Positions 39,840-58,254 of a stretch of 64,000 bases of DNA are shown here, one piece after another. This DNA comes from an uncultured Acidobacteriota bacterium (GTDB lineage: Bacteria; Acidobacteriota; CAIWXX01). A model generated the notes under the pieces. It was not told the origin of the DNA. It worked only from the letters and a program-made list of their open reading frames with translations, and did not search any database. Position numbers and translations under genes: made by a program. Where the stretch lies: positions 62,001 to 126,000 of the forward strand of contig CAIWXX010000137.1 of assembly GCA_903916735.1 (NCBI GenBank), given 5' to 3'. Position 1 is the first letter of the stretch. Every line of letters begins with the position of its first letter.

Positions 39840-40592
39840 CTACTTCAGTACTATTGTTTGGAGCGGTTCTCCGGGGGCGTAGCCGCCTTTTTCCGAAATA
39901 ATAGCCTCCAGATTGTTTTTAATGTCCATACGCTCCATCTCTTCAACCTTAACAAGTTCGAATTTTCTTACCTGTTCCTCCGCGTGTAGAAGCTCCAAGT
40001 TCCAGCGGGGGATGTTTTTTTCAAAGGTTGCCGCGCGGTTTTTATCCACCGCGTCGATTGAAAGCTTCAGATCGGAGATCGCCTCCTTCATCATTCCCAT
40101 TGCTTTCTCCCAGGTTCTTTCCGTTTCCAAAAGGACAAAGCACTTCAACAACCTTACGGCGCCTCGTAGATTATAGGTGCGCCATGCGATAGTATCCGGT
40201 AGAGACTCACTCTCGGCCAAGACAAGGTTACACCGTTCCTGCATGTCACTGAGGTGGTCATTAAGTGCGGCGTAGAGTTTGGATCGGTCGCTTTCCAGGG
40301 AAGGATTGTAACGTGCCGTCGCGATCTGATGGAGCAGGTCGAGGCTGATGGCATACTGTCGCTGGAGGATCCTCAGGTTAACCTCCGGGGTGGATGGCGC
40401 GAGGGCTTTATAGAGCCTCACTGCTTCCCGGTCATCAGCCATATGTTCCACACTCTCAACTCCGCGCTGGAGCTGACAGCTTTGGAGTTCCAGCTTCTTG
40501 AAATACCTATATTGTGATACGCACCGTATGCCATAGGCAAACAAAACAACAGCAGCCACTGTTGGGAACAGAAGAAAGACGATCTTTTTCAT
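39840..40592 (-). CDS. mxaK: MxaK-like single-helix membrane protein
   Basis: A 250-aa protein with one N-terminal membrane helix (IVFLLFPTVAAVVLFAYGI). A long alpha-helical region follows, with TPR-like character and no cysteine or metal motif (YRYFKKLELQSCQL, EAVRLYKALAPSTPEVNL, WEKAMGMMKEAISDL). It sits between two VWA genes with gaps of 31 and 65 nt. MxaK of methanol operons has the same position and general design: small, one helix, poorly conserved. The identification rests mainly on gene order. It would act as a periplasmic scaffold in the VWA complex. Confidence 0.6.
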   Translation of the reverse strand: MKKIVFLLFPTVAAVVLFAYGIRCVSQYRYFKKLELQSCQLQRGVESVEHMADDREAVRLYKALAPSTPEVNLRILQRQYAISLDLLHQIATARYNPSLESDRSKLYAALNDHLSDMQERCNLVLAESESLPDTIAWRTYNLRGAVRLLKCFVLLETERTWEKAMGMMKEAISDLKLSIDAVDKNRAATFEKNIPRWNLELLHAEEQVRKFELVKVEEMERMDIKNNLEAIISEKGGYAPGEPLQTIVLK

Positions 40593-40623: not shown

Positions 40624-41733
40624 TCATATTCTTCGAAACCAGGGGGTCAGTTGTAGCCCCCAGTATGCAACTAGAAACCCGGCAGCAAGCCATGAACACA
40701 GCCACCGTGTTTCCTTCTTTTTCTTGAAAATCTTTACCAATAGCCGGTTTTTCTCCATTTCGTTGATTTTGCCATACACTTCCTTGATCTTTTCCACATC
40801 TAAGGTAAGGGGCATATAGAATATTTGGCCACTCCGCTGCCCCCGTTCGGAGGTATTGATCGCGGTTCGGACTTCTTCGTCCACCTCTCCGCCTACCACA
40901 ATGAGATAGATCCTCACGTCCAGCTTCTTCAGCAACTGAATAACGTTGACGAAGTTCGGCAGCCCTTTCTTGACGTCCTCGTCGCTCTTGTTCGCCTCGA
41001 TGCGACCATCAGTGAAGAGTACGATGGCCATGCCATGGCCGAATTTTGTCTTGGTGAGCTTCTCGGGAACATCGAGTTTCCCAAGAGTCTCCCCCATCAG
41101 GGAATAACGAAAATCGGTCAGTTCTTCGAAAGAAAGCCGGCTTTCTTCCGGAAGCAGCATAAAGAAAGTACAAAGCGCTAACCACGTGGCATAGGAAGCA
41201 TTGGTTGCCCCCCCCACCGTCAGATCACGAAACACGAAGGAATCGGACCTGCGACTGAGCAGTTCGAGCTTCTCCTTCAGGATATCCCGGTCAAAGGTTG
41301 GCGGAGCGATGAGCTTGGCATAGCTCGAAAAGCCGATCACGCCGATCAGGTCGTCTTGGTGCCTCAACCCAACGAAGGTTCTTGCCCCCTCGATCGCAAC
41401 ATCGCCGAGAGTGGACACTCGGTCTTCGCTCGACCGATTCATGGATCCGGAGAGGTCCTGCACAATCATGATCCACTTTGATTCCATAAAGCTCTGCTGC
41501 CACACACTCGAGTACTGAATATTAGTGATGCCCAGTATCGCGAAGAGGAGAAAGAGTGCCGCGAGCGTGTCGATTCCATACCGCTTGAAAAGGTTCGGCT
41601 CGAGTTCCTTGGTGATGAATGCAACTGCTGAAAATCTGGTTTTGTCTTCGTGCCGGCGTTTCCAATAAACCAAGCCTGGAATCACGATAAGGAGCAGTAG
41701 CGCCCACGGAAACTCGAGCTCGACATCATTCAT
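40624..41733 (-). CDS. mxaC: VWA-domain membrane protein, MxaC/BatA-like
   Basis: A 369-aa protein with two N-terminal helices (WALLLLIVIPGLVYW; TLAALFLLFAILGI) and a VWA domain. The MIDAS residues are in VQDLSGSMNRS (about residue 94) and VLFTDGRIEANK (about 225). An inserted helical part (LCTFFMLLPEESRLSFEEL) lies within the domain, and a last helix (WLCSWLAAGFLVAYWGLQL) ends it. It is the partner VWA protein of the mxaL-like gene. The N-terminal Leu-rich helices match BatA. MoxR-type ATPases work through such VWA proteins to mature or remodel client enzymes. Gap to the upstream gene is 24 nt. Confidence 0.75.
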   Translation of the reverse strand: MNDVELEFPWALLLLIVIPGLVYWKRRHEDKTRFSAVAFITKELEPNLFKRYGIDTLAALFLLFAILGITNIQYSSVWQQSFMESKWIMIVQDLSGSMNRSSEDRVSTLGDVAIEGARTFVGLRHQDDLIGVIGFSSYAKLIAPPTFDRDILKEKLELLSRRSDSFVFRDLTVGGATNASYATWLALCTFFMLLPEESRLSFEELTDFRYSLMGETLGKLDVPEKLTKTKFGHGMAIVLFTDGRIEANKSDEDVKKGLPNFVNVIQLLKKLDVRIYLIVVGGEVDEEVRTAINTSERGQRSGQIFYMPLTLDVEKIKEVYGKINEMEKNRLLVKIFKKKKETRWLCSWLAAGFLVAYWGLQLTPWFRRI

Positions 41734-41757: not shown

Positions 41758-43359
41758 CTATGAAGCCGGGAAATCGATGAGGTGCAACACATCGGCCTTG
41801 TATGTATTCAGCTCAGGAAACGGGTGGACTTCGAGCGCCACGGTCTCATCCGTTCGGGTGAGGACTCGTTTCAGAATCTCCGCCAGGTTCTCAGGGATTT
41901 GGTTGCTAACGGCCGCGAAAAATACATCCCCGCTTCCGCCGGATGGGACATTACTGATGCGATATTTAACCACCAGATATGCACGCACCAGCCGGCTTGC
42001 CTCTGCGAGATAGGACCAGTGGGGTTCGTCGGGCTCTTGCTGCAGGAGCTTTCGGAGCTTATCCGCAATAGCGTCTTCTTGGGTCTGTGCCTTGAGTCGC
42101 ATCTCTCGTTGCTTGTTCCGGCAAAGCCTTCCAATCAACCATCCCGTACAACCGAGCCCCGCGGCAAAGAAAAGTATTGCCCGCAAAAGCCATGTGAGTG
42201 CCTTTCGATGGTACGGCATGATGTTGTACTCGGGCGTCATCAGATCCATCGGGATGATTAGGCTGCTTTCCGGCTGCTTGGCAGGCACGAGGGAAGAGAC
42301 CCTGAACTGCAATGCAACGGTCTCAATTGAGCGGTCTTGAGCGCCGGAACATCCCGGGCAGGAATAGCGGATGGTTACCGGGGGAATGACAAAATCCCCG
42401 GGAGCATAACAGCGCAGCCATCCAGTGATCGTGATGGGGCTTTGGGCGGATATCTTGACATAATCGTATGGCTCAATGTGGATCTCAAAAAGTTCTTTTT
42501 CGATCTCAAAGGGTTTAAGATTGATGTTGGCAAATGAACCGGGATCGATGTGAACCCGATCCGTAAAAGCGACCCTGAGGATAAAGGGTATTTTTTCTCC
42601 CATCGCACTGCCGGGTATCGCCAGGGTTAACTTCGCCTGGATTGAGCGCATTAGTTCAACAAGGTAAGGAGAAGCCTGCGCCACGCGAATGTCTTCTGCC
42701 AGGAGGTTGAGAGCCGTAAAGAAAGGCGTCTTGAATATATCGACCCGATAAATGGCATCCGTTCCATCAAAAGAGGCTGCAGCCTGGCTTAGTAGAAGGT
42801 CCTTCTGTTGCTGATCGACCGCGCTTTTCCATCCCAGTTCAAAGGCGTTGAAGAACGCGTAGGTTTTGCCTCCACGCGTGAGAGTCGGGTGAGCATACGC
42901 GATCGTGTCTTCGGCGTTCAACTGAGCGATCAGGCTCTGGATCTGCCCCTTGTTCATACCCTCCCGAAGCTGCAAGAAACAAGCACGTTCGGCGAGCGCC
43001 GGGTCGTACAGGTAATCGACCACCTCGTTGTATTTGTCGACAATCGCCCGGGCAGTCGAGAGAAGGATTGCCTCATTGGCTGGAGTCTCCTTGTTGTCAA
43101 ATGTGGTCTCAAAGAGGTTCGGACGAAACACGATGGTGACCCAAGTGCTATCCAGGTCCGGGATCACCTTGACGTGTTCGTGATCATAGAACCAAATGTT
43201 ATCAAGGTTGATTGGAACAGGCGCGAGCTTTTTCTTAGGGTCAGGGGTGAAGCGAGTGACGGCCCAGGCCGATGTACCGCATTCAAGAAAAAGCAAGGCG
43301 GTCAGGGCAATGAGAAGGAAATGTTTTCCGCAATCAAGACAGGAGAGATGGTGTCGCAT
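41758..43359 (-). CDS. mxaA: MxaA/BatD-like exported membrane protein
   Basis: A 533-aa protein with a signal sequence (LLIALTALLFLECGTSAWA). A long periplasmic part follows, ending in beta-sandwich segments (FEIHIEPYDYVKISAQSPIT, LRCYAPGDFVIPPVTIRYSC). One membrane helix (LTWLLRAILFFAAGLGCTGW) lies near residue 395. The cytoplasmic tail is helical and DUF4381-like (WSYLAEASRLVRAYLVVKY). The architecture and position match MxaA of methanol operons and BatD of Bat operons. It should anchor the maturation complex across the membrane. It is longer than usual MxaA (about 300-350 aa) because of an extra N-terminal domain. Confidence 0.65.
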   Translation of the reverse strand: MRHHLSCLDCGKHFLLIALTALLFLECGTSAWAVTRFTPDPKKKLAPVPINLDNIWFYDHEHVKVIPDLDSTWVTIVFRPNLFETTFDNKETPANEAILLSTARAIVDKYNEVVDYLYDPALAERACFLQLREGMNKGQIQSLIAQLNAEDTIAYAHPTLTRGGKTYAFFNAFELGWKSAVDQQQKDLLLSQAAASFDGTDAIYRVDIFKTPFFTALNLLAEDIRVAQASPYLVELMRSIQAKLTLAIPGSAMGEKIPFILRVAFTDRVHIDPGSFANINLKPFEIEKELFEIHIEPYDYVKISAQSPITITGWLRCYAPGDFVIPPVTIRYSCPGCSGAQDRSIETVALQFRVSSLVPAKQPESSLIIPMDLMTPEYNIMPYHRKALTWLLRAILFFAAGLGCTGWLIGRLCRNKQREMRLKAQTQEDAIADKLRKLLQQEPDEPHWSYLAEASRLVRAYLVVKYRISNVPSGGSGDVFFAAVSNQIPENLAEILKRVLTRTDETVALEVHPFPELNTYKADVLHLIDFPAS

Positions 43360-43371
43360 GGTTTCTTGTCC

Positions 43372-44256
43372 TCAGTAGAGGTGGTCCTTTTGCATAAAGG
43401 CATTGATCTTCTGCGCAAAATCCTCTGTGGGGGTCATCAGCAGTGAGTCAATGCCGGCTCTTAGCAGCGCATCCTTAGTATCTTCCAGGTGCGCGCGCAT
43501 CTTTTCGTTGTATTGTCTCCACTTGTTGAGATCGAGGAGAATGCTTTTCCCGCTTTCGTAATCTACAAGTGGAATGAGACCCCGGGAGTGAGCGGGAAGC
43601 ATGACTTCCCAATCTTCGACTATCTGGAGCGCTTTTACTTCATGTTTGTTGGTGCCGTGGGAAGCGCGCTGAAAGCTATATTCAGTCTTGAAGGCGAACA
43701 TAAAATCAGAAAGGATAAAAGTCAGGCTCTCCGGCAGTTCGTTCATTAGTTTCCGAATCGCCCGATTCAGGTTGGTGTCGTCGCAGGCAATCGGTGTCGC
43801 CTCGGCAATGGCGGCGACAATCTGCGTGAAATGCGACCATCCCATGCGCGGAGGAATATACAGGATCACATCGTCGGCGAACATGATGAGGCCGCAGCCG
43901 TTATTCCCGGCAATAGCGGTATAGGCGAGCGAAACGGCGATGTTGGCGGCAAAGAGCTCCTTGCGGCCGAAGGCGACCGAGGAGCTGAGGTCGTAAAGTA
44001 TCATGAGGTTGAAATAGCTTTCCGCCAGGTACTCCCGCACATAGTACTTACCGGTCTTGGCTCTGGCCTTCCAATCAATATTTTTGAAAGGATCAGTAGG
44101 TCCTAGTTCTCGCAAAGACCAAAACTCATACCCCACGCCCTTGAAGACGCTCTCCCAATCACCCGGAAACGGCGAATCCACCCTGTGGTGGACAAAGATA
44201 TCGAGAAGCTCCTTCTTGGAAAGCAGACTTTTTTCAGTTTTGCTCATTGTCGGCAC
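43372..44256 (-). CDS. mxaS: DUF58 (VWA-like) protein, MxaS-like
   Basis: A 294-aa soluble protein of the DUF58 family. It has the signature GPTDPFKNIDWKARAKTG (about residues 54-71), then a degenerate MIDAS strand ILYDLSSSVAFG and FILSDFMFAF. DUF58 proteins almost always accompany a MoxR ATPase and are thought to connect it to the VWA proteins. Start ATG 44256, 13 nt before the next gene. The dispersed repeat copy 2 sits between it and the AAA+ gene, an insertion into what is otherwise a compact operon. Confidence 0.85.
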   Translation of the reverse strand: MPTMSKTEKSLLSKKELLDIFVHHRVDSPFPGDWESVFKGVGYEFWSLRELGPTDPFKNIDWKARAKTGKYYVREYLAESYFNLMILYDLSSSVAFGRKELFAANIAVSLAYTAIAGNNGCGLIMFADDVILYIPPRMGWSHFTQIVAAIAEATPIACDDTNLNRAIRKLMNELPESLTFILSDFMFAFKTEYSFQRASHGTNKHEVKALQIVEDWEVMLPAHSRGLIPLVDYESGKSILLDLNKWRQYNEKMRAHLEDTKDALLRAGIDSLLMTPTEDFAQKINAFMQKDHLY

Positions 44257-44492: not shown

Positions 44493-45515
44493 CTAATAGG
44501 GAGCAACGATCCCGAGTATCTGTTTGACGATCATGTCCGAGGTCACCTGCTTCGCGAGGGCGGTGCTGTTCAGCAGAATGCGATGTCTCAGAACATGGAC
44601 CGCACACTGATTGACGTCATCAAAGGTTACAGCAGCACGGCCATGACAACACGCAACGGCCTTGGAGAGGGCCAGGAGGAATTCAGTCGCCCGAGGCGAA
44701 GCGCCGAGCCGGATGAACCTATAGATTTCCAAATCAGCATGTTTATTGTGGTAGGTTGCCGGCGGTCTGGTGATCGTGCAAATGTTAATAATATAGTCCA
44801 TCACCTTGGCGCTTACCCGTACTCGTTCGTGAATAAGCTGCTGCATGGCGAGGATATCCCGCGTGGTTGTAACGGTCTGCAGGGAGGCTTTCAGTTCTTC
44901 AAAGTTGAAATTCTTCCGCTTGATCAGCTCCGTCTCTTCATCTCTGTCCGGATAGTCGACCTCGTATTTTACCATGAAGCGGTCAGTTTGTGCTTCGGCC
45001 AGAGGGTAGGTACCGATCTGTTCGATGGGATTTTGGGTGGCGAGCACCATAAAGGGGTTGGGTATGTCATAGCGCAGGCACTCGACATCCACACGCTTTT
45101 CTTGCATCGCTTGAAGCAATGCGGACTGCACTTTCGGTGAAGCGCGGTTGATTTCGTCGGCAAGGAAGACATTGCAGAAAATGGGACCAAAATAGTAGTT
45201 GAACTTCTTCTCCTTTTCACTATAAATCATTGTACCGGTAATATCGCTGGGCATCTTGTCCGGAGTGAACTGAAAGCGCTTAAAGTCACCCCCGATCACC
45301 TTCGCAAAGGTTTCGACGGCCAAGCTCTTGGCAAGGCCGGGCACTCCCTCAAGAAGAATATGTCCTTTGGATAGGAGGGTATAGATCATTAAATCGATCA
45401 TCTTCTCCTGGCCGACCACCACTTTGGCGATTTCAGACTTTATTGCGTGAAATTGGATGGAGAATTCCTTGAAGCTGCTTTCCTGTAGCGCTTCGGGTGA
45501 CGATATTGCCTGCAT
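44493..45515 (-). CDS. mxaR: MoxR-family AAA+ ATPase, MxaR-like
   Basis: A 340-aa cytoplasmic ATPase. Walker A is LLEGVPGLAKS (near residue 55), Walker B VFLADEINRASPKVQSALL (near 117), sensor 1 LATQNPIEQIGTYPLAEAQT, with the lid domain after. All ATPase residues are present. MoxR proteins drive remodelling or cofactor insertion of client enzymes together with VWA proteins. It begins 22 nt after the BtuC-like permease stop, so B12 transport and the AAA+/VWA set are probably one transcript. Gene order downstream matches mxaR-S-A-C-K-L. No methanol dehydrogenase is present in the window. Confidence 0.9.
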   Translation of the reverse strand: MQAISSPEALQESSFKEFSIQFHAIKSEIAKVVVGQEKMIDLMIYTLLSKGHILLEGVPGLAKSLAVETFAKVIGGDFKRFQFTPDKMPSDITGTMIYSEKEKKFNYYFGPIFCNVFLADEINRASPKVQSALLQAMQEKRVDVECLRYDIPNPFMVLATQNPIEQIGTYPLAEAQTDRFMVKYEVDYPDRDEETELIKRKNFNFEELKASLQTVTTTRDILAMQQLIHERVRVSAKVMDYIINICTITRPPATYHNKHADLEIYRFIRLGASPRATEFLLALSKAVACCHGRAAVTFDDVNQCAVHVLRHRILLNSTALAKQVTSDMIVKQILGIVAPY

Positions 45516-45537: not shown

Positions 45538-46587
45538 TTATATGTATTCGAACCGTTTCCGGTATTTTATGAGCAAGTATAGGAAGAAGGGTCCTCCCAT
45601 CAGTGAAGTGAGGATACCGACTCGTAAATCGACCTTAAACACCAACCGCACCACCAAGTCGGCATAGATGACAAACGCCGCCCCCAGCAGACCGGCAAAG
45701 GGGATCAGCTTTCGGTTGTCGGGGCCGATCAGGCCCCGCATTATATGTGGAGCGATGAGACCCACGAATCCGATGACGCCGGATACCGCGATTGCGCCCC
45801 CGGTCTGCAGGGAGGAGAAGAAAAGCAGTGCATTCCGGGCGAACTTGATGTTGACGCCCAGATTGGCGGCGGTTTCTTCGCCGATCATAAGGACGTTGAG
45901 GTCTCTGACAAAAAAAAGCGTTCCGAACAGCGCCAACAAAGTGGTCGGCACGACAATGCGTACGTGCTCCCAAGAGCGATTGTTCAGATCCCCCATGAGC
46001 CAGGTAACGATCACCCGCCCCACCTCGAATTCGCGGGTGCCCAAGGTAATGATAAAAGAGGTCATGGCGCCAAAAATCAAGTTAAGGGCGATACCGCAAA
46101 GGAGCAGCGTAGAAATCGAAGTATGCCCCCGGGAGGTAGCGATGGCAAAGACCATGATCAGCGTCAGCAGGGAAAATATGATCGCCATGAGCGGCAGGGC
46201 AAGAAGCGATTTGGCCGCGAGCCCGAGGTAAATGGCGAGGACTGCTCCGAGGGCTGCTCCCGAGTCGATGCCGATAACCCCCGGGCTGGCCATGGGGTTT
46301 TTAAAAACAGCCTGCATAATGCACCCCGCAACGGCCAAGGAAAAGCCTACCAGGAAGGCCACGATAAGCCGGGGCATTCTTCCGTCCCAAACAATGGTAG
46401 CTTCGACGTCGTCTATCTTGCCGGAGAAAAGCCCGAGCTTCTGGAAGACGATCTTGAATACATGGTCCACCTCGATGTGCCAGGAACCGGAAGTAATTGA
46501 CAATATGGCGCCGAGCGCGAGCAAGGTCACCAAGGTGGCGAGCAGAAGGACGTCTTTCTTGGGAAGACCGTTAAAAAGCGCTTTCAT
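45538..46587 (-). CDS. btuC: FecCD/BtuC-family ABC permease
   Basis: A 349-aa membrane protein with about ten helices, normal for permeases of siderophores, haem or cobalamin. Family features are FLVGFSLAVAGCIMQAVFKNPMASP (helix 2-3, here given in part: MQAVFKNPMASPGVIGI), GGAIAVSGVIGFVGLIAPH (coupling loop) and HIMRGLIGPDNRKLIP. Its start overlaps the end of the binding-protein gene by 17 nt. Substrate B12 rather than iron is inferred from the neighbouring B12-dependent lyase and the cobalamin riboswitch/btuB on the other side. The family itself does not decide. Confidence 0.82.
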   Translation of the reverse strand: MKALFNGLPKKDVLLLATLVTLLALGAILSITSGSWHIEVDHVFKIVFQKLGLFSGKIDDVEATIVWDGRMPRLIVAFLVGFSLAVAGCIMQAVFKNPMASPGVIGIDSGAALGAVLAIYLGLAAKSLLALPLMAIIFSLLTLIMVFAIATSRGHTSISTLLLCGIALNLIFGAMTSFIITLGTREFEVGRVIVTWLMGDLNNRSWEHVRIVVPTTLLALFGTLFFVRDLNVLMIGEETAANLGVNIKFARNALLFFSSLQTGGAIAVSGVIGFVGLIAPHIMRGLIGPDNRKLIPFAGLLGAAFVIYADLVVRLVFKVDLRVGILTSLMGGPFFLYLLIKYRKRFEYI

Positions 46588-47602
46588 AAACGACGCCAGC
46601 CAGAAGATTAGCGCTCAGAACCATGTACTGAGAGGCAACCCTCAGGTAGACCCCAGGCACATAATACACCTTGCCGCTCTGAATTGCACTGACATGGGAA
46701 AGCATTTGATTGCCCATGAGCTGTTCTTTGAGGCCGCTTTCTTTGGGCACCACAATGATATCCGGGTTCCACTTGAGCAGGGTTTCGTAGTCAATCTGGG
46801 ACCAGGATTTTATTCCCTGCTCTGCGCCCACATTGACCACGTGGATGATCTCGCAAATGGAGTCGAAATTGGAAGACTTGCCGGGAACATACCCTCCCTG
46901 ATCGTAGTAAAGCACCCGAAGGGGGCGACTGACTTTTGGCAGCTTCGCTTGTAGGTTCCGCATTTGTGTATCGACGGTCTTAACCAGGGCTTCGGCATTT
47001 CGCTCTTCGCCGATAAGCTTTCCGATCAGCAGTATCTGCTTGTTGATGGAGTCAATGGTTCCGAAATATCCGAGGTCGAAATAGGGTATCTTTGCCTGGT
47101 TCAGCTTTTCCTTAAAATCCGCCCCTGAATAGAAGACCGTAAAGACCAAATCAGGACGATAGCCGATCACCAGCTCGGTCTGCTTCGATTGGAACACCGG
47201 CCCGGCCTTTTTTACCTGGTCGGCGATAAAACAGGACTCCGAATCTGCCGCAAACTCATTGAAGGCGACTATCCTTTCCCGGGGACAGATTGCCCAGAGG
47301 ATTTCGGCAACTCCCACGGCATGAGGGATGATGCGCAGTGGCTTTGCCTTTACCACAAAGGTTCGCTCTTCCACTCTTAAGGCGTCGCTCCGGAAATCGT
47401 ATTCTTCCTGTTGGCATGTCACTGTTCTCGGCCAGGCCCCTTCCGGACCGGATCCTCCGCGAGCCAGGCTGAGCTGCTCTCTTAGTTTCACGGCATCGAG
47501 CGGAGTCTTAGGCGCATGCTCCTCTTGAGATTCTCCGTACGATACCTGGGAGAATAATAGACAGCCCGCAATCAGCAATGACAGTGAGAAAAAATGTTTC
47601 AT
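46571..47602 (-). CDS. btuF: FecB/BtuF-family periplasmic binding protein
   Basis: A 343-aa exported protein (signal MKHFFSLSLLIAGCLLFSQ). It has two lobes joined by a helix. RIIPHAVGVAEILWAICPRE and RIVAFNEFAA mark the first lobe, QTELVIGYRPDLVFTVFY the ligand cleft, and YETLLKWNPDIIVVPKE the second. Start ATG 47602 follows GAGGTAAGG; frame open further upstream overlaps the ATPase gene and is not needed. It delivers its ligand to the BtuC/D-like pair. Class III binding proteins serve cobalamin, haem and siderophores; cobalamin is favoured by context. Confidence 0.82.
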   Translation of the reverse strand: MKHFFSLSLLIAGCLLFSQVSYGESQEEHAPKTPLDAVKLREQLSLARGGSGPEGAWPRTVTCQQEEYDFRSDALRVEERTFVVKAKPLRIIPHAVGVAEILWAICPRERIVAFNEFAADSESCFIADQVKKAGPVFQSKQTELVIGYRPDLVFTVFYSGADFKEKLNQAKIPYFDLGYFGTIDSINKQILLIGKLIGEERNAEALVKTVDTQMRNLQAKLPKVSRPLRVLYYDQGGYVPGKSSNFDSICEIIHVVNVGAEQGIKSWSQIDYETLLKWNPDIIVVPKESGLKEQLMGNQMLSHVSAIQSGKVYYVPGVYLRVASQYMVLSANLLAGVVYESAF

Positions 47603-47612
47603 ACACCTTACC

Positions 47613-48377
47613 TCAGTCTTTAGAAAAGTAAAGAAAGCTCTGAGAGTCATTTTTAATTTCCGCCATATTGACGTTAAAGACCGCTTGGATGTTTTCTCGG
47701 GAAAAGGCCTCATCAGGAGAGCCGATGAAGAACACTTTCCCTTTGTGAAGAATTAAAATGGTGTCGCAATATCGTTTGGCAAGGTTCAAATCATGAATGC
47801 TCACCAAAATGGTTTTTTCTTTTTTCTTTAAATCTTCCAACAGATCCATAATGGTGAGGGTGTGGCGAATATCGAGGTCAGAGGTAGGTTCATCCAGAAG
47901 AATGAGCGACGCCTCGGTAGCTAAAGCCCGGGCGAGAATCGCCAGCTGACTTTCACCACCGGAGAGTTCGTTGATGTTCCGATCTCTTAGATCAGAGACA
48001 TTCGTTGTCCTCAAAGCCCTGTCGATGATTTCCCGATCTCTGGTGCCGAGCGCCTGAAAACGCCCGAGATGGGGATGGCGGCCCATGGCAACCACTTCAT
48101 ACACGGAGATCGGAAAGCCGATAGCAGTATCTTGGGGAACCAGGGTGACCATGGTGCTCAATGCTTTCCGCGAGATGGTCCGGTAATCTTTGCCGTCGAG
48201 AAAGACAGCGCCTTCCTGCGGTTCCCAAATCCGGCTGATGTTTTTTAAAAGCGTTGATTTGCCCGAGCCGTTCGGACCCACGATGCCATGAATCTTGCCT
48301 GCTTCGAACCGTGCAGTAATGCCGTGCAATATTTTTTTCTCAGCAAAGGAAAAGTGGAGATTATCTATGGCTATCAT
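47613..48377 (-). CDS. btuD: ABC transporter ATPase, FecE/BtuD type
   Basis: A 254-aa ATPase with Walker A GIVGPNGSGKST (about residues 31-42), Q-loop VPQDTAIG, signature ELSGGESQLAILARAL, Walker B LILLDEPTSDLDI and H-loop SIHDLN. Typical of class II importers that pair with FecCD-type permeases. It lies 10 nt before the binding-protein gene and 29 nt after an unknown membrane protein. The order ATPase, binding protein, permease is continuous with the AAA+/VWA genes. Confidence 0.9.
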   Translation of the reverse strand: MIAIDNLHFSFAEKKILHGITARFEAGKIHGIVGPNGSGKSTLLKNISRIWEPQEGAVFLDGKDYRTISRKALSTMVTLVPQDTAIGFPISVYEVVAMGRHPHLGRFQALGTRDREIIDRALRTTNVSDLRDRNINELSGGESQLAILARALATEASLILLDEPTSDLDIRHTLTIMDLLEDLKKKEKTILVSIHDLNLAKRYCDTILILHKGKVFFIGSPDEAFSRENIQAVFNVNMAEIKNDSQSFLYFSKD

Positions 48378-48406: not shown

Positions 48407-49222
48407 TTAAGCACAGAGCTTGAGCCTATACGCGATCGGGAGAATGAATTTGGAAACAACGACGCACACCAAACCAAAGCAAACGGTACCGGTGAGCAAA
48501 GGGCTGGTGAGCGTGGAGGAGAACTCGGCCGTAATTCCCAAGGCGCTCCAAATAAACAACTGACCTAAGATGAGCTGAAAATTCTGAGAAAGGGCATAAA
48601 TGACCCAAAAATTATGGGAGAGTCTTTGGTCCGCCCCCCTGCGAATTTTTATTTCAATAATCTTGAACCAGGTGCGGCCCTCAACGATCTGAGCTGATCC
48701 ATCACAGAGGTGATGCAGGAAATAGAGGAGGATGATGATGAAGCCCTTATGGGGGAAGTCAGAAAAACAGTACTTAAACACCGGAGGGAAACACGAGAAA
48801 AGAAAAACCGCCCCCAGCGCCTGCCCGCCGGCGATTCCCACATGGGCCTTAATCAGTTTGCCGATCTGGTTCTGGCTTTCCCTGAAAGCCTCCAAGTGGT
48901 CGATGAATCCGGAAGTATAGGTGCTGCTCACAATGGTTATGCTGGGATACACATATTTTACCACAAGCCCCAAGATCGCGGCGACCTTCAGCTCCTTTTC
49001 CGCCATCGAGAACATGGCAAAGAGAATCACTCCGTCAAGAATGTTCTTGCCGATGGTGTAAACGATATTCCCGATTTCGCCGTATCGGTAGAAGGGTACG
49101 CTCGTAAAAGCCAGGATGTATAGTTTAATCTTTTCGGCAAGCGGCGGAGGCTTATGTTCATACCCCCTGGTTATCTGATCTTGGGTCAGAGAACCGTCTT
49201 CTCGGAAGCTCAAGTTAGACAC
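48407..49222 (-). CDS. Multi-pass membrane protein of unknown function
   Basis: A 271-aa protein beginning at GTG 49222. It has a soluble N-terminus (~50 residues, SLTQDQITRGYEHKPPPL) and about five or six hydrophobic helices: NILDGVILFAMFSMA, VAAILGLVVKYVYPSITIVS, ALGAVFLFSCFPPVF, FIIILLYFLHHLCDG and LLTGTVCFGLVCVVVSKFIL. I recognise no family. It is first in the run with the B12-type transporter and lies directly downstream of the eutBC terminator. Possible roles are substrate or product passage, or a transporter component. A palindrome overlaps its upstream region. Confidence 0.7.
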   Translation of the reverse strand: MSNLSFREDGSLTQDQITRGYEHKPPPLAEKIKLYILAFTSVPFYRYGEIGNIVYTIGKNILDGVILFAMFSMAEKELKVAAILGLVVKYVYPSITIVSSTYTSGFIDHLEAFRESQNQIGKLIKAHVGIAGGQALGAVFLFSCFPPVFKYCFSDFPHKGFIIILLYFLHHLCDGSAQIVEGRTWFKIIEIKIRRGADQRLSHNFWVIYALSQNFQLILGQLFIWSALGITAEFSSTLTSPLLTGTVCFGLVCVVVSKFILPIAYRLKLCA

Positions 49223-49243: not shown

Positions 49244-49302
49244 TCTCCGGGGTAACACATTGCGCCCTAGTTCCCAGATAATCACACCAGAAGGGAAAAT
49301 GG

Positions 49303-49328
49303 AAAAGGGCACCAGATGGTGCCCTTTT
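49303..49328. terminator. Bidirectional terminator behind eutBC
   Basis: AAAAGGGCACC-AGAT-GGTGCCCTTTT is a perfect 11-bp stem with a 4-nt loop and T-tails in both directions. It follows the eutBC stop (49366) by about 40 nt on the minus strand, so it separates eutBC from the transporter/AAA+ operon, which must have its own promoter or rely on read-through. Confidence 0.9.
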
Positions 49329-49365
49329 CATTAGGATCATAGTAATAAACTGGCAACAAGCCCGA

Positions 49366-51666
49366 CTACGGATTTGTTTTGCCGGTCATCTCTTTGAGAA
49401 TTCTAACCGTTTGTTGGGCTCCAACCTCCGGCCTGGTAGCCATCACGGAGACACCGCAGACAACCTTGACGATGTCGTGGTCGCATTTTTTCTCCGCCCA
49501 CACCTGTGCCTTGGGAGCGGCGATGTAGATCGAAAATGCGTCCTGTCCGGTTCCCGGCCGCTCGCCGATGATGTGTAGGACAGCCTTAGGCTGAGTCGGA
49601 TCGGATTTTCCAAAGAGCACGCTGCCGATTGCATATCCGGCCCGCACTCGGCCCTCTTTGACAATGATGTTTTTATCGTCCACCGTGTAGCCGGCTTCCT
49701 TCAGGTCCTTCCGGACTTCGTTCAAGTAGGGCAGAAGATGTCCTTCCCTCATGATCGAGTTCGCATTCAGACCATCGGAAATGACGATCTGTACATCAGG
49801 AGCCTTACCAGCCCAGGAATCCCTAAGCTTCTCCATGCTTGCCACCGCCTCAGTGCTCAGCACTTCGCCGGAAGAGGGGTGAAGGATATAGTCCTCGCGG
49901 TCCTTGGACTGGGTGTTGATCACCACAGCATTGGGAACGGTGTTGACAAACGTCGGGCTTAATTCGGCCCAAATCGCCTTCTTGGCGTCTTCGTAAAGGC
50001 CGTGGATTTTCGCGTCCAGCTCTGGATTCAGGTCCCATAGATTCTTGCCATGGCCAGCTGCCAGAGGCACCCGGTTGCAGGTTTTGAGCCACGTGCCGTG
50101 GATATCGTCGAACTTCTTCTTGCCTTCGGCCATGATTTCGGCCTGGGAGCGTGTGTCGCCATTGGCCTTGCAGAACTGGTAATACACCCAGGTCGGATCG
50201 CCGAAGTGCTCCGTGTACTTGTTGTCGGCGCCAACGATCCCGATACGCTTATAGAAATCCCACATGGCATCGTTGATCTTGAAGCCGAATTTTTCCCGGA
50301 GCCGAATGTGGTCCTGATAAGAAGTGGTGAGGTAGCTCAGCATCGGGTCATTCTTGGTGGGAAGCGCCATCAAGTAGGCCGGACCAGCCGGCATGATCTG
50401 GTCGAGGCACCAGTCGAGATCATCCAGGCTGACTGCCATATGAAGGGTGGAGCAAACATCCAATCCTGAGGCCAATCCATGGAGCTTGCCCATGCAGATG
50501 TCCTCGAGGCAGCAGCGAACCAACTGATCGCGGGTTCTGAACACTTCGGGCCCGATGAATCCAGCGACATCGTTAAAGTGGGTCCAAACGCCTTTGGGCA
50601 TCACCTTGGCGAGTTCTTGTTTCAGGCCGCGGGCAAATCCGTACTTGCGCGATTCGAGGACCACCATGTCAACACCTTCAGCCGCGCCGTTGGTGAAGTC
50701 AGATCCCTGGCCGGTCTCATAATAGAGTCCATACTTTTGGCCCACACGGGATTTGGCCAGGTTGACCATTTGGTCGACCTTGACACCGAATGTGTCATTG
50801 CACTTTTCCGTTCCTGCCAGGCTCTGGAAGAGCTCCATCACGAGCCCTGGGTCTTTATCAAACACTGCCTTCTGGATATCGATAAAGGCGAGTACGCAGG
50901 ATGGAACCACTTCTTCAAGCTTGAAAGTTTTTACAATGCCCGTGAGGCATTTTTCCAAGTTAACGATGTTCGACTCGGTACTATCCACTGGGTTGGTGCC
51001 GATGACGATGTCGCCCACTGCATAGGAAAACGCGCTGAACACCTGCCAGCTGATTTCGTCGACGTCGTCAGTGGGTGAGTTGGGTTGAATCCGGGCGCTC
51101 AGGTAGCCCTTGGCTCCGATCTTGCTACCCGGCAGCGGGTTCCAGATCGTGGAGTCAATTTTGATCAATTCTGTATTGCTCATCAGTTTGGGCACACAGC
51201 CGATGATGTCGCTGTTCAAGCCGCCCATGATCCCTTTGATTTCCGCTTCCGGTTTGGTCAAAAGGAAAGTCTTCAGCTCGCCCATGGTCCAGCCCTTGAT
51301 TTTTTCGTACTGGGCCTTGTCGGTGCTTGCCCAAATGAATTTCTGCACTGAATCTACGAGGAGCGGATGCTCATGGAGAGCCTGGATCTTGGTGTTGGAA
51401 AGCAGCATCCGGGCATTGGCTCTCGTCGCTTCATCATTAGCCGCCACGCCCAAGGCCTCGTCGCCTTCCTTATAGGCATTGGCGGAACCGATCACTTGCT
51501 GATACAGAGTCAGGTCAAATTGCCCTTTGACTCTTTGGACGTACTGGAATACATCCTCGCCAGGTTTGACATCTTTGATAGTGACGGCACTGGCAAGGGT
51601 GCTCAAGGAGAGAATCGTCAGACAGGCTAAGGTTACAGAAAGTATTCTTTTCGTGAGGTTGATCAT
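49366..51666 (-). CDS. eutBC: Exported ethanolamine ammonia-lyase, EutB-EutC fusion
   Basis: A 766-aa protein. Residues 1-27 form a Sec-type signal peptide ending LASA. Residues ~35-500 are EutB, the (beta/alpha)8 barrel. The family's active-site residues are kept: Arg192 and Gln194 in SARIQPN, Asn225 in GTNPVD, Glu317 in YYETGQGSD, Asp403 in GLDVCSTLH. Residues ~600-760 are EutC, with ISDGLNANSI (631 onward), GRVRAGYAIG and IGERPGTGQDAFSIYIA. A ~100-residue linker joins them. The enzyme splits ethanolamine into acetaldehyde and ammonia using adenosylcobalamin. Known enzymes are separate cytoplasmic subunits; a signal peptide and fusion are unusual. No eutA, eutE, eutH or shell genes are here. 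RBS AGGAGGGGGGG. Confidence 0.9.
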   Translation of the reverse strand: MINLTKRILSVTLACLTILSLSTLASAVTIKDVKPGEDVFQYVQRVKGQFDLTLYQQVIGSANAYKEGDEALGVAANDEATRANARMLLSNTKIQALHEHPLLVDSVQKFIWASTDKAQYEKIKGWTMGELKTFLLTKPEAEIKGIMGGLNSDIIGCVPKLMSNTELIKIDSTIWNPLPGSKIGAKGYLSARIQPNSPTDDVDEISWQVFSAFSYAVGDIVIGTNPVDSTESNIVNLEKCLTGIVKTFKLEEVVPSCVLAFIDIQKAVFDKDPGLVMELFQSLAGTEKCNDTFGVKVDQMVNLAKSRVGQKYGLYYETGQGSDFTNGAAEGVDMVVLESRKYGFARGLKQELAKVMPKGVWTHFNDVAGFIGPEVFRTRDQLVRCCLEDICMGKLHGLASGLDVCSTLHMAVSLDDLDWCLDQIMPAGPAYLMALPTKNDPMLSYLTTSYQDHIRLREKFGFKINDAMWDFYKRIGIVGADNKYTEHFGDPTWVYYQFCKANGDTRSQAEIMAEGKKKFDDIHGTWLKTCNRVPLAAGHGKNLWDLNPELDAKIHGLYEDAKKAIWAELSPTFVNTVPNAVVINTQSKDREDYILHPSSGEVLSTEAVASMEKLRDSWAGKAPDVQIVISDGLNANSIMREGHLLPYLNEVRKDLKEAGYTVDDKNIIVKEGRVRAGYAIGSVLFGKSDPTQPKAVLHIIGERPGTGQDAFSIYIAAPKAQVWAEKKCDHDIVKVVCGVSVMATRPEVGAQQTVRILKEMTGKTNP

Positions 51667-51860: not shown

Positions 51861-52772
51861 CTAGAATGACATTTTAAATGCTACGCCGCCGTACACGAAA
51901 CGAGAACTGTTTCCGTCGAAGCTCACAGCCTTGAGAAAATCATCGGCCTTATCAGTCAACGGGAACGAGTAGTTGATGGATGGAGCGAGCGAGCACCAGT
52001 CATTGACCGGGATGGTCAAACCGCCAGAGATGAACCCATCATGCCACGCACTATAGTCAGCGCCAGGTTCAGAGCTCGGGATGTTATAGTGACCGAACGT
52101 GGTGGCCAAATCAACGCTCCAGCCTTTCGTCTTGGGGGACAGACTGTCCATGGCAAAGCTGTGAGCAAAGGAGAGATTGATGTACGTGGCAGCCGGGTCA
52201 TACATGACTCCCCGCCATATGCTTATCGAGGGAGAGACAATCTTGTTGATCTGAGGATTCGTCAAACCGAAAATGAAAAACAGTTCCTGATCTTCTGCGC
52301 CGTCTACATCGTAGTTAATCCACCCGAATGTGCAGTCCAAACTGCTATCCTCGGAGAAGGGAATGGAGTTGGCGTAGGTTAGAACCCAGTCGGTTTCCCA
52401 CCATGTGGCGGTATCATGCTGGTCGCCGGCTCCTTTGTACTTCATGTCGTAATCACCCCACATATTGATGCCGAAAGCTCCGTACTTTCCAGCATCCAGC
52501 CCGACGGTGACGTTGGGAAACATGACCATACTGCCTTTGCTCAACTCGTAGCCGCGCCACACATACTTGGAAAAGAACGTCATTGAAAAATCGCAAGTCG
52601 GCTTAATGGCCGGTTCCTTGGCTTCTTCCGCAGCCGTTTCCTTGGCTTCTGCCTTGGCCGTTTCCTCGGTTGTAACCGGTTTCTCTTTCTCCTGGGCGTA
52701 GACGAACGAGCCGCACATGGCGAAAGCCATGAGGAGGAGGGCCATTCCCACTAAAATTCTATTGATCCTCAT
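51861..52772 (-). CDS. Outer-membrane porin of the TorF type
   Basis: A 303-aa protein. A signal peptide (ILVGMALLLMAFAMCGSFVYA) is followed by an Ala/Glu/Lys-rich linker (residues ~28-55) and a beta-barrel. The barrel starts TFFSKYVWRGYELSKGSMV, the signature of TIGR02001/TorF-like putative porins, and ends VYGGVAFKMSF with a terminal Phe. I use ATG 52772 because AAAAGGAGA is 8 nt away; the GTG two codons earlier is too close. It lies 194 nt upstream of eutBC on the same strand and could admit ethanolamine or serve an outer-membrane role in the same system. Confidence 0.78.
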   Translation of the reverse strand: MRINRILVGMALLLMAFAMCGSFVYAQEKEKPVTTEETAKAEAKETAAEEAKEPAIKPTCDFSMTFFSKYVWRGYELSKGSMVMFPNVTVGLDAGKYGAFGINMWGDYDMKYKGAGDQHDTATWWETDWVLTYANSIPFSEDSSLDCTFGWINYDVDGAEDQELFFIFGLTNPQINKIVSPSISIWRGVMYDPAATYINLSFAHSFAMDSLSPKTKGWSVDLATTFGHYNIPSSEPGADYSAWHDGFISGGLTIPVNDWCSLAPSINYSFPLTDKADDFLKAVSFDGNSSRFVYGGVAFKMSF

Positions 52773-52841
52773 CAGCACATCTCCTTTTATTGATTGTTTA
52801 TAATCGACAATATGAGGAAATTGTTCGCAAAAACTAGTAAC

Positions 52842-53384: not shown

Positions 53385-53567
53385 TCAGAAGGTACTGAAA
53401 TCAGTTCAATGATCGCGATCGGCGAAGGGAAGTCCGTCGAAGCGGACGCTGCCCCGCAACTGTAAGCGGTGATGAAAGCTGCAGAAAGCCACTGTTCACC
53501 GGAAGGGTGAATGGGAAGGCGCAGCGAGTAAGAAGACCCGTGAGCCAGGAGACCTGCCGGAAGCAAT
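53385..53567 (+). ncRNA. Cobalamin (AdoCbl) riboswitch
   Basis: The conserved core elements appear in order: GGCGAAGGGAAGTCCG, GCTGCCCCGCAACTGTAAGC, AAAGCCACTG, GGGAAGGCG, and the B12 box GAGCCAGGAGACCTGCC (53542-53559). The RNA binds cobalamin and here precedes a transcription terminator. B12 would therefore switch off the btuB-like receptor downstream. It is on the opposite strand from eutBC, so it does not control the lyase directly. Confidence 0.95.
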
Positions 53568-53596
53568 GAAAAATCCTTCGAGGGTGGGGTGATAAT

Positions 53597-53962: not shown

Positions 53963-55951
53963 ATGAAAACATTTCCTGTTCTCGTTCTCATCGTCGGATC
54001 CACCCTTTCAGCAGCCGATGAAGAACAGGTTCAGATCCCGAAGCCATCCGTGGAGGTACAAGTGGTGGCATCCCGGCTTTCCGGCCACACAGTCGATGCA
54101 GACAAAGTCCCTGTCGCTTCGGTTGTCATCACACGTGAGGAGATCGAAAAGAGCGCAGCCACAACCGTGGCGGATATACTCGCTGAGCAACCTGAAGTCG
54201 TTGCCTATGATCTGGCAGGCAACGGAAAAGAAGCCGTCCTCGATCTCCGGGGGTTCAATGAAGGAAGAGCCGCCGCTATTTTTCTGGACGACGTCCGGAT
54301 CAACGAGCCCGATGATAACCGGACTCTACTTTCCCAGATCCCTCTTGAGTGGGTCGATCGGATAGAAATCTTCAAAGGAGCCTCATCGAGTGTACTGGGA
54401 GGCGGGGCTTTATCGGGCGCAATCCGCATCTACTCCACCCGCGACGAAGGGAACCGGGTCAAATTGACGGGAGGATCGTACTCGAGCGGCAGGATGGCTG
54501 CAGAACACAACCAGTCTGTTTCATTCGGCAAAATCAGCATTGGCGCCGGATACGATCGCAGCGACGGATTCCGCGAAAACAGCGAATCCCGTCAAGGATG
54601 GCTACGCACGGGATTACATCGTTCCTTCGGGTCGGGCACAATGGGTCTTGCCTATTCCTATTCCTCATCACGTTTCGGATTGCCCAGTGCGCTGACAGCC
54701 GCTGAATTGGAACAGGATCGATACGCATCACCTTACAACAAAGTCGATGAAGATTCCTTCAAAACGCATCTTTTTTCAGCCGATTTTCAGGTGGCCCGGA
54801 AAGCGACGCTTTTCAGTGGGAATGCCTTTTTACGAAGCAACGGGGCGGATGCTCTGACCACCGGCCGGTATGCGCAGATGTATGGAGGGTTCGCCACTCA
54901 AGCTCGCAATACAAGCGGCGGAACGACTCTGCAAATGAGCACCCCGATCATCAATGACCAGACGACTCTCACCGCCGGCACCGAACTCTCATGGATCAAG
55001 CTGGATGCGGACGGATTCTATACAGATGTCACCGGTAAGAGGACAGGGCCGGCATCATCCACCAAGACAACTGAAAACTGGCAGGCGGCTTTCGCACAAA
55101 TCGAAACCACATTGATGGACCGCGTAAGCATTTTCGCGAGCGGCCGATACGATTGGCAATCGATCGATTTCGATGACATCATGACGAAATACTCGGCGGC
55201 TCGCACCTTCGACAAGGGGACGTTCAAGGCGGGGACTAGCTTTTCATGGGACTCTTATTCAACCTCATTCGTGTCCTATTCAACTGCATTCCAAACTCCA
55301 ACCATACTGGATCTTTTCGCGTACCCCCTTTTCGGAAGCAATCCGGACCTGCGACCCTCGATCGCCCGAACTCTGGAAGTCGGGCAGCGCTTCAAGCAGA
55401 AGCATCTTTCATTCGAAATCTCCGTTTTTGATATGAAGGTCACGGACGAGGTCATTTATGTGATGACGGACCCCATCCATTTCATCGGGCGCAACGAAAA
55501 CGCCGGGCAGAGCCTTCGACACGGACTGGACGTGTCATTCGTCGGACGACCACGGGCAGGGACAACACTGCAGGCCAGTTGCAGCTACATCACCGCCCGT
55601 TTCGATGCCGGCGAATATGCCGGGAACGACTTGACCATGATCCCGAAACTGAAATTCAATTTCGGCGCTTCACATGATCTCACATCACAACTGCGGCTCA
55701 GCAGCCAGATTGTGTGCACGGGCGCACAGTATGTGATCAGCGACGAATCCAACACACTCTTGAAACTCCCGGCCTACTGGCGGGCCGATCTCCGGGCGCG
55801 CTATTCAGTCCGGAAATGGGCCGTGGAAGGGGCGATCCGCAATCTCACGAACAACAAATATTCAACGAGGGCGATTACCGACGGCTTTATGACTTACTTC
55901 ACTCCTGCCGCCGGAATCAACGCCGAAGTGGCCGTCAACTATCAATTCTGA
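53963..55951 (+). CDS. btuB: TonB-dependent outer-membrane receptor, BtuB-like
   Basis: A 662-aa protein with a signal peptide (MKTFPVLVLIVGSTLSAADE). The N-terminal region PSVEVQVVASRLSG leads into the plug (SVVITREEIEKSAATTVADI, GKEAVLDLRGFNEGRAAAIF, VDRIEIFKGASSSVLGGGAL). The 22-strand barrel ends INAEVAVNYQF. ATG 53963 follows GAGAAAGGAG. Cobalamin is the likely ligand because a cobalamin riboswitch and its terminator are directly upstream. Together with the BtuF/C/D-like genes on the other strand this provides a complete B12 uptake route. Confidence 0.9.
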   Translation: MKTFPVLVLIVGSTLSAADEEQVQIPKPSVEVQVVASRLSGHTVDADKVPVASVVITREEIEKSAATTVADILAEQPEVVAYDLAGNGKEAVLDLRGFNEGRAAAIFLDDVRINEPDDNRTLLSQIPLEWVDRIEIFKGASSSVLGGGALSGAIRIYSTRDEGNRVKLTGGSYSSGRMAAEHNQSVSFGKISIGAGYDRSDGFRENSESRQGWLRTGLHRSFGSGTMGLAYSYSSSRFGLPSALTAAELEQDRYASPYNKVDEDSFKTHLFSADFQVARKATLFSGNAFLRSNGADALTTGRYAQMYGGFATQARNTSGGTTLQMSTPIINDQTTLTAGTELSWIKLDADGFYTDVTGKRTGPASSTKTTENWQAAFAQIETTLMDRVSIFASGRYDWQSIDFDDIMTKYSAARTFDKGTFKAGTSFSWDSYSTSFVSYSTAFQTPTILDLFAYPLFGSNPDLRPSIARTLEVGQRFKQKHLSFEISVFDMKVTDEVIYVMTDPIHFIGRNENAGQSLRHGLDVSFVGRPRAGTTLQASCSYITARFDAGEYAGNDLTMIPKLKFNFGASHDLTSQLRLSSQIVCTGAQYVISDESNTLLKLPAYWRADLRARYSVRKWAVEGAIRNLTNNKYSTRAITDGFMTYFTPAAGINAEVAVNYQF

Positions 55952-56517
55952 GGCTTGTAGAAAAGGGGAAAGAGAGTAGAGGGCTTGATCTGAATTCCTC
56001 GGTTTTTTATCCGACTTATCTTGCGCCAGTGCACTAACTCTGATAAAATCCCTTGCAAATGGCCGGCCAGGGGACTCCGAGATCGGAATTGGGGAAGGTA
56101 TCACCTTGGGTCTTCAATAAGCTTTTGAGCATCTAACTTTGAGTGAAGGAAAAATGGGAATGAGTAATGTTGGGTGCATTCGTAAGAAACTAAAATCCAG
56201 CACGGAGGGACTGAGACACGGAGAGAAAAATCCTGATCATAAGCAGGGTTTGCACCAAGTCTTCTCCGGCGTATGCCCCATAGGGCAGGAGGCGACTTCG
56301 CTCTCATTGTTCATGGCGAAGTTTGCGAGAGGGAGGGAGCCTTCGGCGAGGCGGCTTCAGCACCCATTGTTTTCGTCTTTTCGCAGCTACATCACAGCAA
56401 TAGAGAGAGCCGGCAAGGGCTTCTTTCAGCCCAGACCCCGATCCTTTGACGGATTCAACGAACGGTGACGGACTTTACATAATTTTTAATGACACATTAT
56501 TAAGAAGGAGGTGTTGT
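55952..56517. other. Intergenic stretch between btuB and the AOR gene
   Basis: 566 nt with a frame open into the AOR start but no conserved protein sequence, strong terminator or promoter I can name. The GGAGGTGTTGT just before 56518 is the AOR ribosome-binding site. Confidence 0.4.
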
Positions 56518-58254
56518 ATGGACAAGATTTTGAGGATTGACATGGGCGCCGATGGAGGGCCCAAAATTACTGAAACACCACTTGGCGATTACGCCGGACT
56601 GGGCGGACGGGCCATGACGACAACCGTTGTGTCGCGGGAAGTCCCGCCGCTTTGCCACCCCCTGAGCGCAGAAAACAAACTGGTCATTGCGCCCGGCCTT
56701 CTGAGCGGAACGATTGCTGCCATGTCCGGCAGGCTCTCCGTCGGCTGCAAAAGCCCTCTCACAGGCGGGATCAAAGAGTCGAACTCCGGAGGCCAGGCGG
56801 CGCAAGTGCTTGCTCGACTCGGCTACGCCGCAATCATTCTTGAAGGCAAGCCCAAAACCGATGATATTTATAAAATACTCATTGACAAAAACGGCGTCAA
56901 AATTGTTATCGACAACAGCCTTAAGATGCTTCCGAATTACGACCTTGTTACAAAAATAAGATCGGAATTCGGTGACAAGATTGCCTGCATGTCTATCGGG
57001 CCCGCCGGCGAGATGATGATGAACATTGCTTCAATCGCCTGCACCGACATGGAACTCCGCCCAACCCGGCATGCAGGCCGTGGCGGTGTTGGAGCGGTCA
57101 TGGGCTCAAAAAGGGTCAAGGCGATCGTTCTCGACGATTCGGGCATGCCGATGCGCACACCAAAAGATCCCGTGAAATTCAAAGCTGCCAACAAGGTATT
57201 TACCGAGGGACTCCTGAAGCACCCGGTTACCGGACAGGCGCTTCCAGCATACGGTACAAATGTGTTGACCAATATTCTCAACGAGGCCGGAGGATATCCG
57301 ACAAACAATTTTAAAGAGGGCCGCTTTGCAGGCGCTGCGAAAATCAGCGGCGAGGCCCAAGCCGAGCTCGAAGTCAAGCGGGGAGGCCTTGCGACGCATG
57401 GCTGTCATCGCGGCTGTGTCATCCGCTGCTCCGGTATCTATAACGATAAGGACGGCCATTTCCTTTCCAAACAGCCTGAATACGAGACGGTCTGGTCACA
57501 TGGCGGCCACTGCGGCATCGACGATCTTGATTCCATTGCCATGCTCGATTTTCTCGATGACAATTACGGTGTTGACACCATTGAAATGGGCGTCACTATT
57601 GGAGTTGCAATGGATGCAGGTCTCGCCAAGTTTGGCGATGCCGAGGCGGCTATCAATCTTGTGAAAGAAGTGGGCAAAGGCTCACCTCTTGGCCGCATCC
57701 TCGGCAGCGGCGCAGGGGTTACAGGCAGGGTGTATGGTGTCGAACGCGTTCCCGTGGTCAAGAACCAAGCGATGCCTGCCTACGATCCGCGGGCGGTGAA
57801 AGGAATCGGGGTCACCTATGCCACGTCGACCATGGGAGCTGACCACACTGCCGGATACTGTATCGCAACCAACATCCTCAAGGTCGGCGGCTTTGTCGAT
57901 CCGCTCAAGCCAGAAGGGCAAATTGAGCTTTCGCGCAATCTCCAGATCGCAACTGCGGCGATTGACTCCACTGGCATGTGCCTCTTTATAGCATTTGCGA
58001 TTCTCGATCAGCCTGAGACATTCCAGGCCCTTCTCGACCTGCTCAATTCTTTTTATGGTCTGAGTCTCACCGGCGATAGCGTTGTAGAACTCGGTAAAAA
58101 GGTGCTCAGCACGGAGCGGGATTTTAATACCCGGGCCGGGTTTACCGCGATGCACGACCGTCTGCCCCGGTATTTTTCTACCGAACCCGTCGCACCGCAT
58201 AACGTAACATTCGGCGTTAAGGACGAGGACCTCGATAAGGTATTCGCCTGGTAA
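56518..58254 (+). CDS. aor: Aldehyde:ferredoxin oxidoreductase (tungsten type)
   Basis: A 578-aa enzyme oxidising aldehydes to acids and reducing ferredoxin. The N-terminal domain has MDKILRIDMGADGG and the pterin-binding GYAAIILEGKP. The cluster and pterin-binding region has THGCHRGCVIRCSGIY (about residues 296-311) with the C-x3-C-x3-C pattern. The C-terminal DSTGMCLFIAFAILDQ supplies the last Cys. I chose ATG 56518, behind AAGGAGGTG, rather than the upstream in-frame ATG. A MoaD-like gene and a radical SAM gene nearby fit cofactor supply. It could oxidise acetaldehyde from the ethanolamine lyase, an inference from neighbourhood only. Confidence 0.93.
   Translation: MDKILRIDMGADGGPKITETPLGDYAGLGGRAMTTTVVSREVPPLCHPLSAENKLVIAPGLLSGTIAAMSGRLSVGCKSPLTGGIKESNSGGQAAQVLARLGYAAIILEGKPKTDDIYKILIDKNGVKIVIDNSLKMLPNYDLVTKIRSEFGDKIACMSIGPAGEMMMNIASIACTDMELRPTRHAGRGGVGAVMGSKRVKAIVLDDSGMPMRTPKDPVKFKAANKVFTEGLLKHPVTGQALPAYGTNVLTNILNEAGGYPTNNFKEGRFAGAAKISGEAQAELEVKRGGLATHGCHRGCVIRCSGIYNDKDGHFLSKQPEYETVWSHGGHCGIDDLDSIAMLDFLDDNYGVDTIEMGVTIGVAMDAGLAKFGDAEAAINLVKEVGKGSPLGRILGSGAGVTGRVYGVERVPVVKNQAMPAYDPRAVKGIGVTYATSTMGADHTAGYCIATNILKVGGFVDPLKPEGQIELSRNLQIATAAIDSTGMCLFIAFAILDQPETFQALLDLLNSFYGLSLTGDSVVELGKKVLSTERDFNTRAGFTAMHDRLPRYFSTEPVAPHNVTFGVKDEDLDKVFAW

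Follow-up and report, generated by a model that had tools for sequence, protein, structure and literature searches.

A fused EutB-EutC ethanolamine ammonia-lyase with a predicted Sec export signal in an uncultured Acidobacteriota bacterium

The lyase gene and its surroundings

Reading the open reading frames of the window, by which we mean the whole 64-kb stretch of DNA analysed, revealed an ORF of 766 amino acids plus stop on the minus strand (49366..51666) that encodes a EutB-EutC fusion with an N-terminal signal. Its ATG start at 51666 is preceded by an AGGAGG Shine-Dalgarno site. A genome-wide search for a second, canonical ethanolamine ammonia-lyase (EAL) found none, so that the fusion is the sole EAL of a genome that is 98.7% complete. 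The features of the locus are as follows:

37404..38540, minus strand: lipoprotein-type solute-binding protein (SBP_bac_6)
38758..39774, minus strand: second VWA protein with membrane segments, BatA/BatB-like
39840..40592, minus strand: 250-aa protein with an N-terminal membrane segment, MxaK-like in position only
40624..41733, minus strand: VWA protein with membrane segments, BatA-like
41758..43359, minus strand: 533-aa protein with an N-terminal signal, a large presumed periplasmic part and one later transmembrane segment, MxaA-like in position only
43372..44256, minus strand: DUF58 protein in an MxaS-like position
44493..45515, minus strand: MoxR-type AAA ATPase
45538..46587, minus strand: BtuC-like permease (FecCD family)
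46571..47713, minus strand: BtuF-like periplasmic binding protein, the true start being probably internal (MKHFFSL...)
47613..48377, minus strand: BtuD/FecE-like ABC ATPase (Pfam/NCBIfam)
48407..49222, minus strand: multi-helix membrane protein of 271 aa, without a sequence match in Pfam, NCBIfam or the PDB
49302..49329, minus strand: strong intrinsic terminator immediately after the lyase, its stem 12 bp long
49366..51666, minus strand: EutB-EutC fusion, 766 aa (Pfam, NCBIfam, residues, model)
51586..51666, minus strand: signal-peptide coding part, residues 1 to ~27 (MINLTKRILSVTLACLTILSLSTLASA), assigned from the sequence and homologues
51861..52778, minus strand: 305-aa predicted outer-membrane protein upstream of the lyase, relatives of which match Gcw_chp
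53403..53575, plus strand: cobalamin riboswitch (RF00174, 94.5 bits)
53963..55951, plus strand: TonB-dependent receptor (BtuB/siderophore receptor type)
56446..58254, plus strand: aldehyde ferredoxin oxidoreductase

Much of this gene set was found again beside the fused lyase in Desulfuromonadales, where SBP_bac_6 homologues lie directly upstream of it. Homologues of the 305-aa outer-membrane protein adjoin the lyase in several relatives, and aldehyde ferredoxin oxidoreductase homologues are directly downstream in three loci (L015, L016 and L024). The original prediction was silent on the adjacent B12-uptake genes, the riboswitch and the oxidoreductase. Other surroundings were also seen: nine rhizobial loci (L021, L023, L025, L028, L029, L034, L037, L050 and L053), whose lyases carry Tat-type signals, lie near genes for a zinc alcohol dehydrogenase, a phosphoketolase, a CBS-BON protein and a GH94-type protein, which points to a conserved cluster, and an alpha/beta hydrolase gene directly precedes the lipoprotein-type lyases of Bacteroidota (L045-L047). 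Elsewhere in the window (59502-61447), a radical SAM/SPASM protein adjoins a 204-aa protein that belongs to no known family.

The EutB domain is matched by Pfam at residues 55-486 (E 1e-138) and by NCBIfam PRK15067 at residues 40-503, above its cut-off. Residues 535-761 match Pfam EutC above cut-off (E 2e-30), but the NCBIfam EutC equivalog PRK05465 gives only 78.9 bits against a cut-off of 230, and the claim made here is therefore of a divergent EAL lineage and not of an equivalog EutC. The presence of EutB and EutC in one polypeptide, as originally predicted, is thus upheld by Pfam for both domains and by PRK15067 for EutB, whereas the predicted linker of ~100 residues is too long: the domain matches leave only ~30-50 residues between them, and this joint is partly helical in the AlphaFold2 model.

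Counterparts of E. coli R160, Q162, N193, E287, F329 and D362, which from EAL structures we take to be the substrate and active-site residues of EutB, are present in the window lyase by alignment, and all six are invariant across 52 fused proteins and three canonical EutBs. The EutC parts of the fused proteins share DGL, GRV and GERPG-type motifs with canonical EutC. An AlphaFold2 model built on a 42-sequence alignment reached pLDDT 86 and pTM 0.85, with residues 1-25 at low confidence, and Foldseek placed its EutB part on solved EutB 3abo_A (TM 0.86) and its EutC part on solved EutC 5ysr_D (TM 0.73). The structure prediction and comparison proposed earlier thus bear out a complete EutB with its substrate and active-site residues in place, and the best reading of sequence and model is a catalytically competent EAL.

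It is unlikely, though conceivable, that the exported protein serves mainly another substrate, such as a small amino alcohol, or binds or stores B12 in the periplasm in place of EAL catalysis. Such a role would fit the divergent EutC, which falls below the PRK05465 cut-off, the class V aminotransferase gene near the lyase in three loci, and the two paralogues of Pelobacter carbinolicus, for which ethanolamine and choline were suggested as substrates (PMC3543383). Against it are the invariance of the six residues in 52 proteins and the aldehyde oxidoreductase directly downstream in three loci. The aminotransferase loci are L014, L017 and L022.

Export signals in the fused family

AdoCbl-dependent radical enzymes have been studied as cytoplasmic or microcompartment enzymes. 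The N-terminus of the window lyase, MINLTKRILSVTLACLTILSLSTLASA followed by VT, has a charged n-region, a hydrophobic core and an ASA cleavage motif, an arrangement conserved in 15 relatives; the twin-arginine motif of Tat signals is absent, KR standing in place of RR. Judged by its sequence, this is a textbook Sec signal. The signal peptide had been predicted, and both its n-, h- and c-regions with the ASA motif and the export signals of nearly all fused homologues support it; the accompanying remark that the n-region has KR and no clear Tat RR is right for the window protein, though most relatives use Tat. A chance hydrophobic N-terminus or a wrong start, with the true protein beginning later and remaining cytoplasmic, is highly improbable: nothing specific speaks for it, only a TTG being found downstream before the conserved core, and it is opposed by the strong Shine-Dalgarno site and by a signal position conserved in nearly all homologues. 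A start-codon artefact was rejected on the same grounds, AGGAGG at the ATG and conservation of the signal.

A genome-contig scan together with a search for relatives gave 54 fused EutB-EutC proteins, the window one included, spread over several bacterial phyla; 53 had a readable start. The original prediction had proposed looking for fusions with signal peptides in other genomes, and 52 of these 53, counting the window protein, carry one (16 Sec, 33 Tat and 3 lipoprotein), the classes being assigned by eye and by a crude rule, and L002 and L017 being put in the Tat class by eye. Tat-type lyases occur in rhizobia, deltas and planctomycetes, with motifs such as SRRDLLVMAG, SRRRFLGILG and LTRRKILQTG, and the three lipoprotein signals are all in Bacteroidota (L045-L047). 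The sole readable-start member without a signal is L004 (G009), a divergent fusion of 38% identity and possibly a cytoplasmic relative of the exported lineage. The crude rule was positive in 49 of the 53 fused proteins and in none of four canonical EutBs, but also in 30% of neighbouring ORFs. What carries weight is therefore the conservation and the unlikeness of the signal types.

In a maximum-likelihood tree of the mature parts, a large Tat clade is nested inside the Sec types. Apart from it stands another Tat group (planctomycetes, L002 and L003). A single Sec clade was rejected (p-AU 0.0086), indicating that the export route has switched while export itself was kept. Two to three unrelated signal types across the fused homologues would be hard to explain unless the mature enzyme lies outside the inner membrane. 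As read from these signals, an exported EAL is a family-wide trait, with Sec, Tat and lipoprotein signals as alternative routes; the implication is that a radical B12 enzyme regarded as intracellular may work outside the inner membrane.

There is also a slim chance that the N-terminal segment stays on the protein as an anchor or a helix for membrane targeting, which would hold the EAL at the cytoplasmic side of the inner membrane without a microcompartment. The handling of acetaldehyde and AdoCbl would then be cytoplasmic, and the EAL of Acinetobacter baumannii is indeed membrane-associated in the absence of a metabolosome or EutA (PMC9426561). However, the cleavage motifs (ASA, AxA) come after the hydrophobic core, and the canonical SRRxFL Tat motifs or lipoboxes of many relatives would make no sense in a cytoplasmic protein. 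We therefore consider it likely, from the sequences and the model, that the window protein is an AdoCbl-dependent EAL made as one chain, exported by Sec to the periplasm, and supplied with its cofactor after export. The envelope proteins and B12-import genes around the lyase also favour this reading, while the divergent EutC and the signal-less L004 speak against it.

Cofactor supply and accessory genes

A search of the lyase's own genome for CbiC did not find it, so the corrin ring is very likely not built and the corrinoid is salvaged. CbiC is found in nearly all of the rhizobial Tat-type relatives searched and is mixed in other groups. The same genome has a BtuR-type adenosyltransferase, while a search for one of PduO type found none in it. 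Cobalamin is probably imported via the periplasm and adenosylated in the cytoplasm; since the adenosyltransferase is presumed to be cytoplasmic, AdoCbl for a periplasmic lyase would need either to be exported or to be taken up as AdoCbl, which counts against that location.

Full-length EutA is present in three of 39 fused-EAL genomes and absent from 36. Its presence in most genomes was considered and rejected: the weak matches cover ~45-150 of 475 positions and, being short, were taken as other actin-fold ATPases. The lack of EutA in 36 of the 39 means that the spent cofactor must be replaced in some other way or that the enzyme resists inactivation, as has been suggested for A. baumannii (PMC9426561). 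Shell genes likewise occur in three of the 39 genomes. As to the claim that no eutA, shell or eutE gene is near the lyase, this stands within the 64-kb window, where none accompanies it as in a microcompartment eut operon, but the genome does have shell-protein genes on three other contigs (L067, L068 and L069, on G000 contigs C96, C62 and C22). One of these contigs has a class II aldolase beside the shell gene and another an aldehyde dehydrogenase-like protein; with such neighbours, and on other contigs, these genes are unsupported as a home for the EAL.

At Sec-type loci, btuDFC-like genes and a MoxR/DUF58/VWA operon often accompany the lyase. Genome-wide searching found the 271-aa membrane protein in 13 of 14 Sec-type genomes and in none of 34 others, 29 of which have a fusion of Tat or lipoprotein type. 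The 533-aa protein of the MoxR operon was present in 10 genomes, all Sec-type, three of these matches being weak. This split of accessory genes by export route is striking, and on the tree it comprises only two independent contrasts. By sequence, the 271-aa protein has no relative among solved structures; a half-MFS-like fold was considered from weak matches (E 0.1 or worse), among them FLVCR1 bound to choline and to ethanolamine, and was not relied on. Among the genomes, G084 has two lyase loci (L036/L041), and in G086 the gene for the 271-aa membrane protein is present twice (contigs C51 and C37), which recalls P. carbinolicus, where the locus is also duplicated. Two of these contigs carry matches to a BtuR-type adenosyltransferase.

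MoxR and VWA proteins are encoded together beside the lyase, as in an mxa-type operon, in a gene order that we take to be the mxaRSACKL layout. The 533-aa and 250-aa proteins have MxaA/MxaK-like positions and plausible topology, and match no named families. MoxR ATPases with VWA partners are maturation chaperones, including for methanol dehydrogenase (PMC3893208). Given this maturation role and the mxaRSACKL-like layout, the MoxR/VWA operon is the best candidate for loading or reactivation, and from gene order and co-occurrence it may, together with the 271-aa membrane protein, load or reactivate the lyase.

The periplasmic lyase would split ethanolamine into acetaldehyde and ammonia, and the acetaldehyde would enter the cytoplasm, where the aldehyde ferredoxin oxidoreductase encoded nearby would oxidise it. 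Tat-type members would probably bind AdoCbl while still in the cytoplasm and be exported in folded form. The window lyase, being of Sec type, would have to obtain its cofactor once outside; the likely source is cobalamin that enters through the TonB receptor associated with the riboswitch or that the cell releases, and the 271-aa membrane protein, the Btu-like ABC system and the MoxR/VWA operon may help in this acquisition. A more far-reaching proposal, which we put forward tentatively and regard as doubtful, is a Sec-type periplasmic AdoCbl-enzyme system in which the lyase crosses unfolded and these three (membrane protein, transporter and MoxR/VWA complex) form a dedicated apparatus that would load and reactivate it outside, take the place of EutA and possibly move AdoCbl outward. 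We know of no AdoCbl radical enzyme that is loaded or reactivated in the periplasm.

Known systems and meaning

With canonical EutBC (E. coli 3abo, and EutB of Listeria, 2qez) the window lyase shares both domains, the fold and the invariant catalytic residues, but it is one fused chain with an export signal, a divergent EutC and no eutA or shell genes beside it. The fusion is not itself new, having been reported in 2012 for P. carbinolicus, some strains of which grow on ethanolamine and whose EALs are given as two fused genes, eutBC1 and eutBC2 (PMC3543383). The neighbours described there match those of the window: a membrane protein, a solute-binding protein, a corrinoid-type ABC transporter, VWFA proteins, an ATPase, an outer-membrane cobalamin channel and an aldehyde ferredoxin oxidoreductase, with no eutA. 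The ethanolamine section of that paper does not mention export, whereas here export signals are recognised as a family-wide trait with several routes. Our literature search for an exported EAL or exported AdoCbl enzyme found no report, and rhizobial and alpha-proteobacterial papers on Tat or secretion do not mention an exported EAL in their main text.

The nearest precedent is PceA, a corrinoid reductive dehalogenase whose Tat signal is bound by a dedicated maturation chaperone, PceT (PMC8905343). Both enzymes are B12-dependent and carry an export signal, but that of PceA is Tat and that of the window lyase Sec, and PceA has no AdoCbl radical chemistry; homology is not expected. The A. baumannii EAL, like the window lyase, does without a microcompartment or EutA, but is reported as membrane-associated, with no export described (PMC9426561). 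What the window operon has in common with mxaRSACKL is its gene order: MoxR and DUF58, then a signal-bearing protein, a VWA protein, a small membrane protein and a second VWA protein, with the gene for an exported cofactor enzyme alongside. MoxR is important for activation of periplasmic methanol dehydrogenase (PMC3893208), and the link of the window operon to EAL is drawn from synteny only, the 533-aa and 250-aa proteins being without a named-family match.

A periplasmic B12-loading system is a plausible proposal. It would offer a candidate function for the 271-aa membrane protein and for one type of MoxR/VWA operon. The occurrence of one enzyme in Sec and Tat versions lets the site of AdoCbl insertion, and folded loading before export, be asked about directly. 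The exported family also raises the questions of how the lyase would exchange a spent cofactor when outside the cytoplasm, and of whether export may be an alternative to the microcompartment for keeping acetaldehyde from the cytoplasm.
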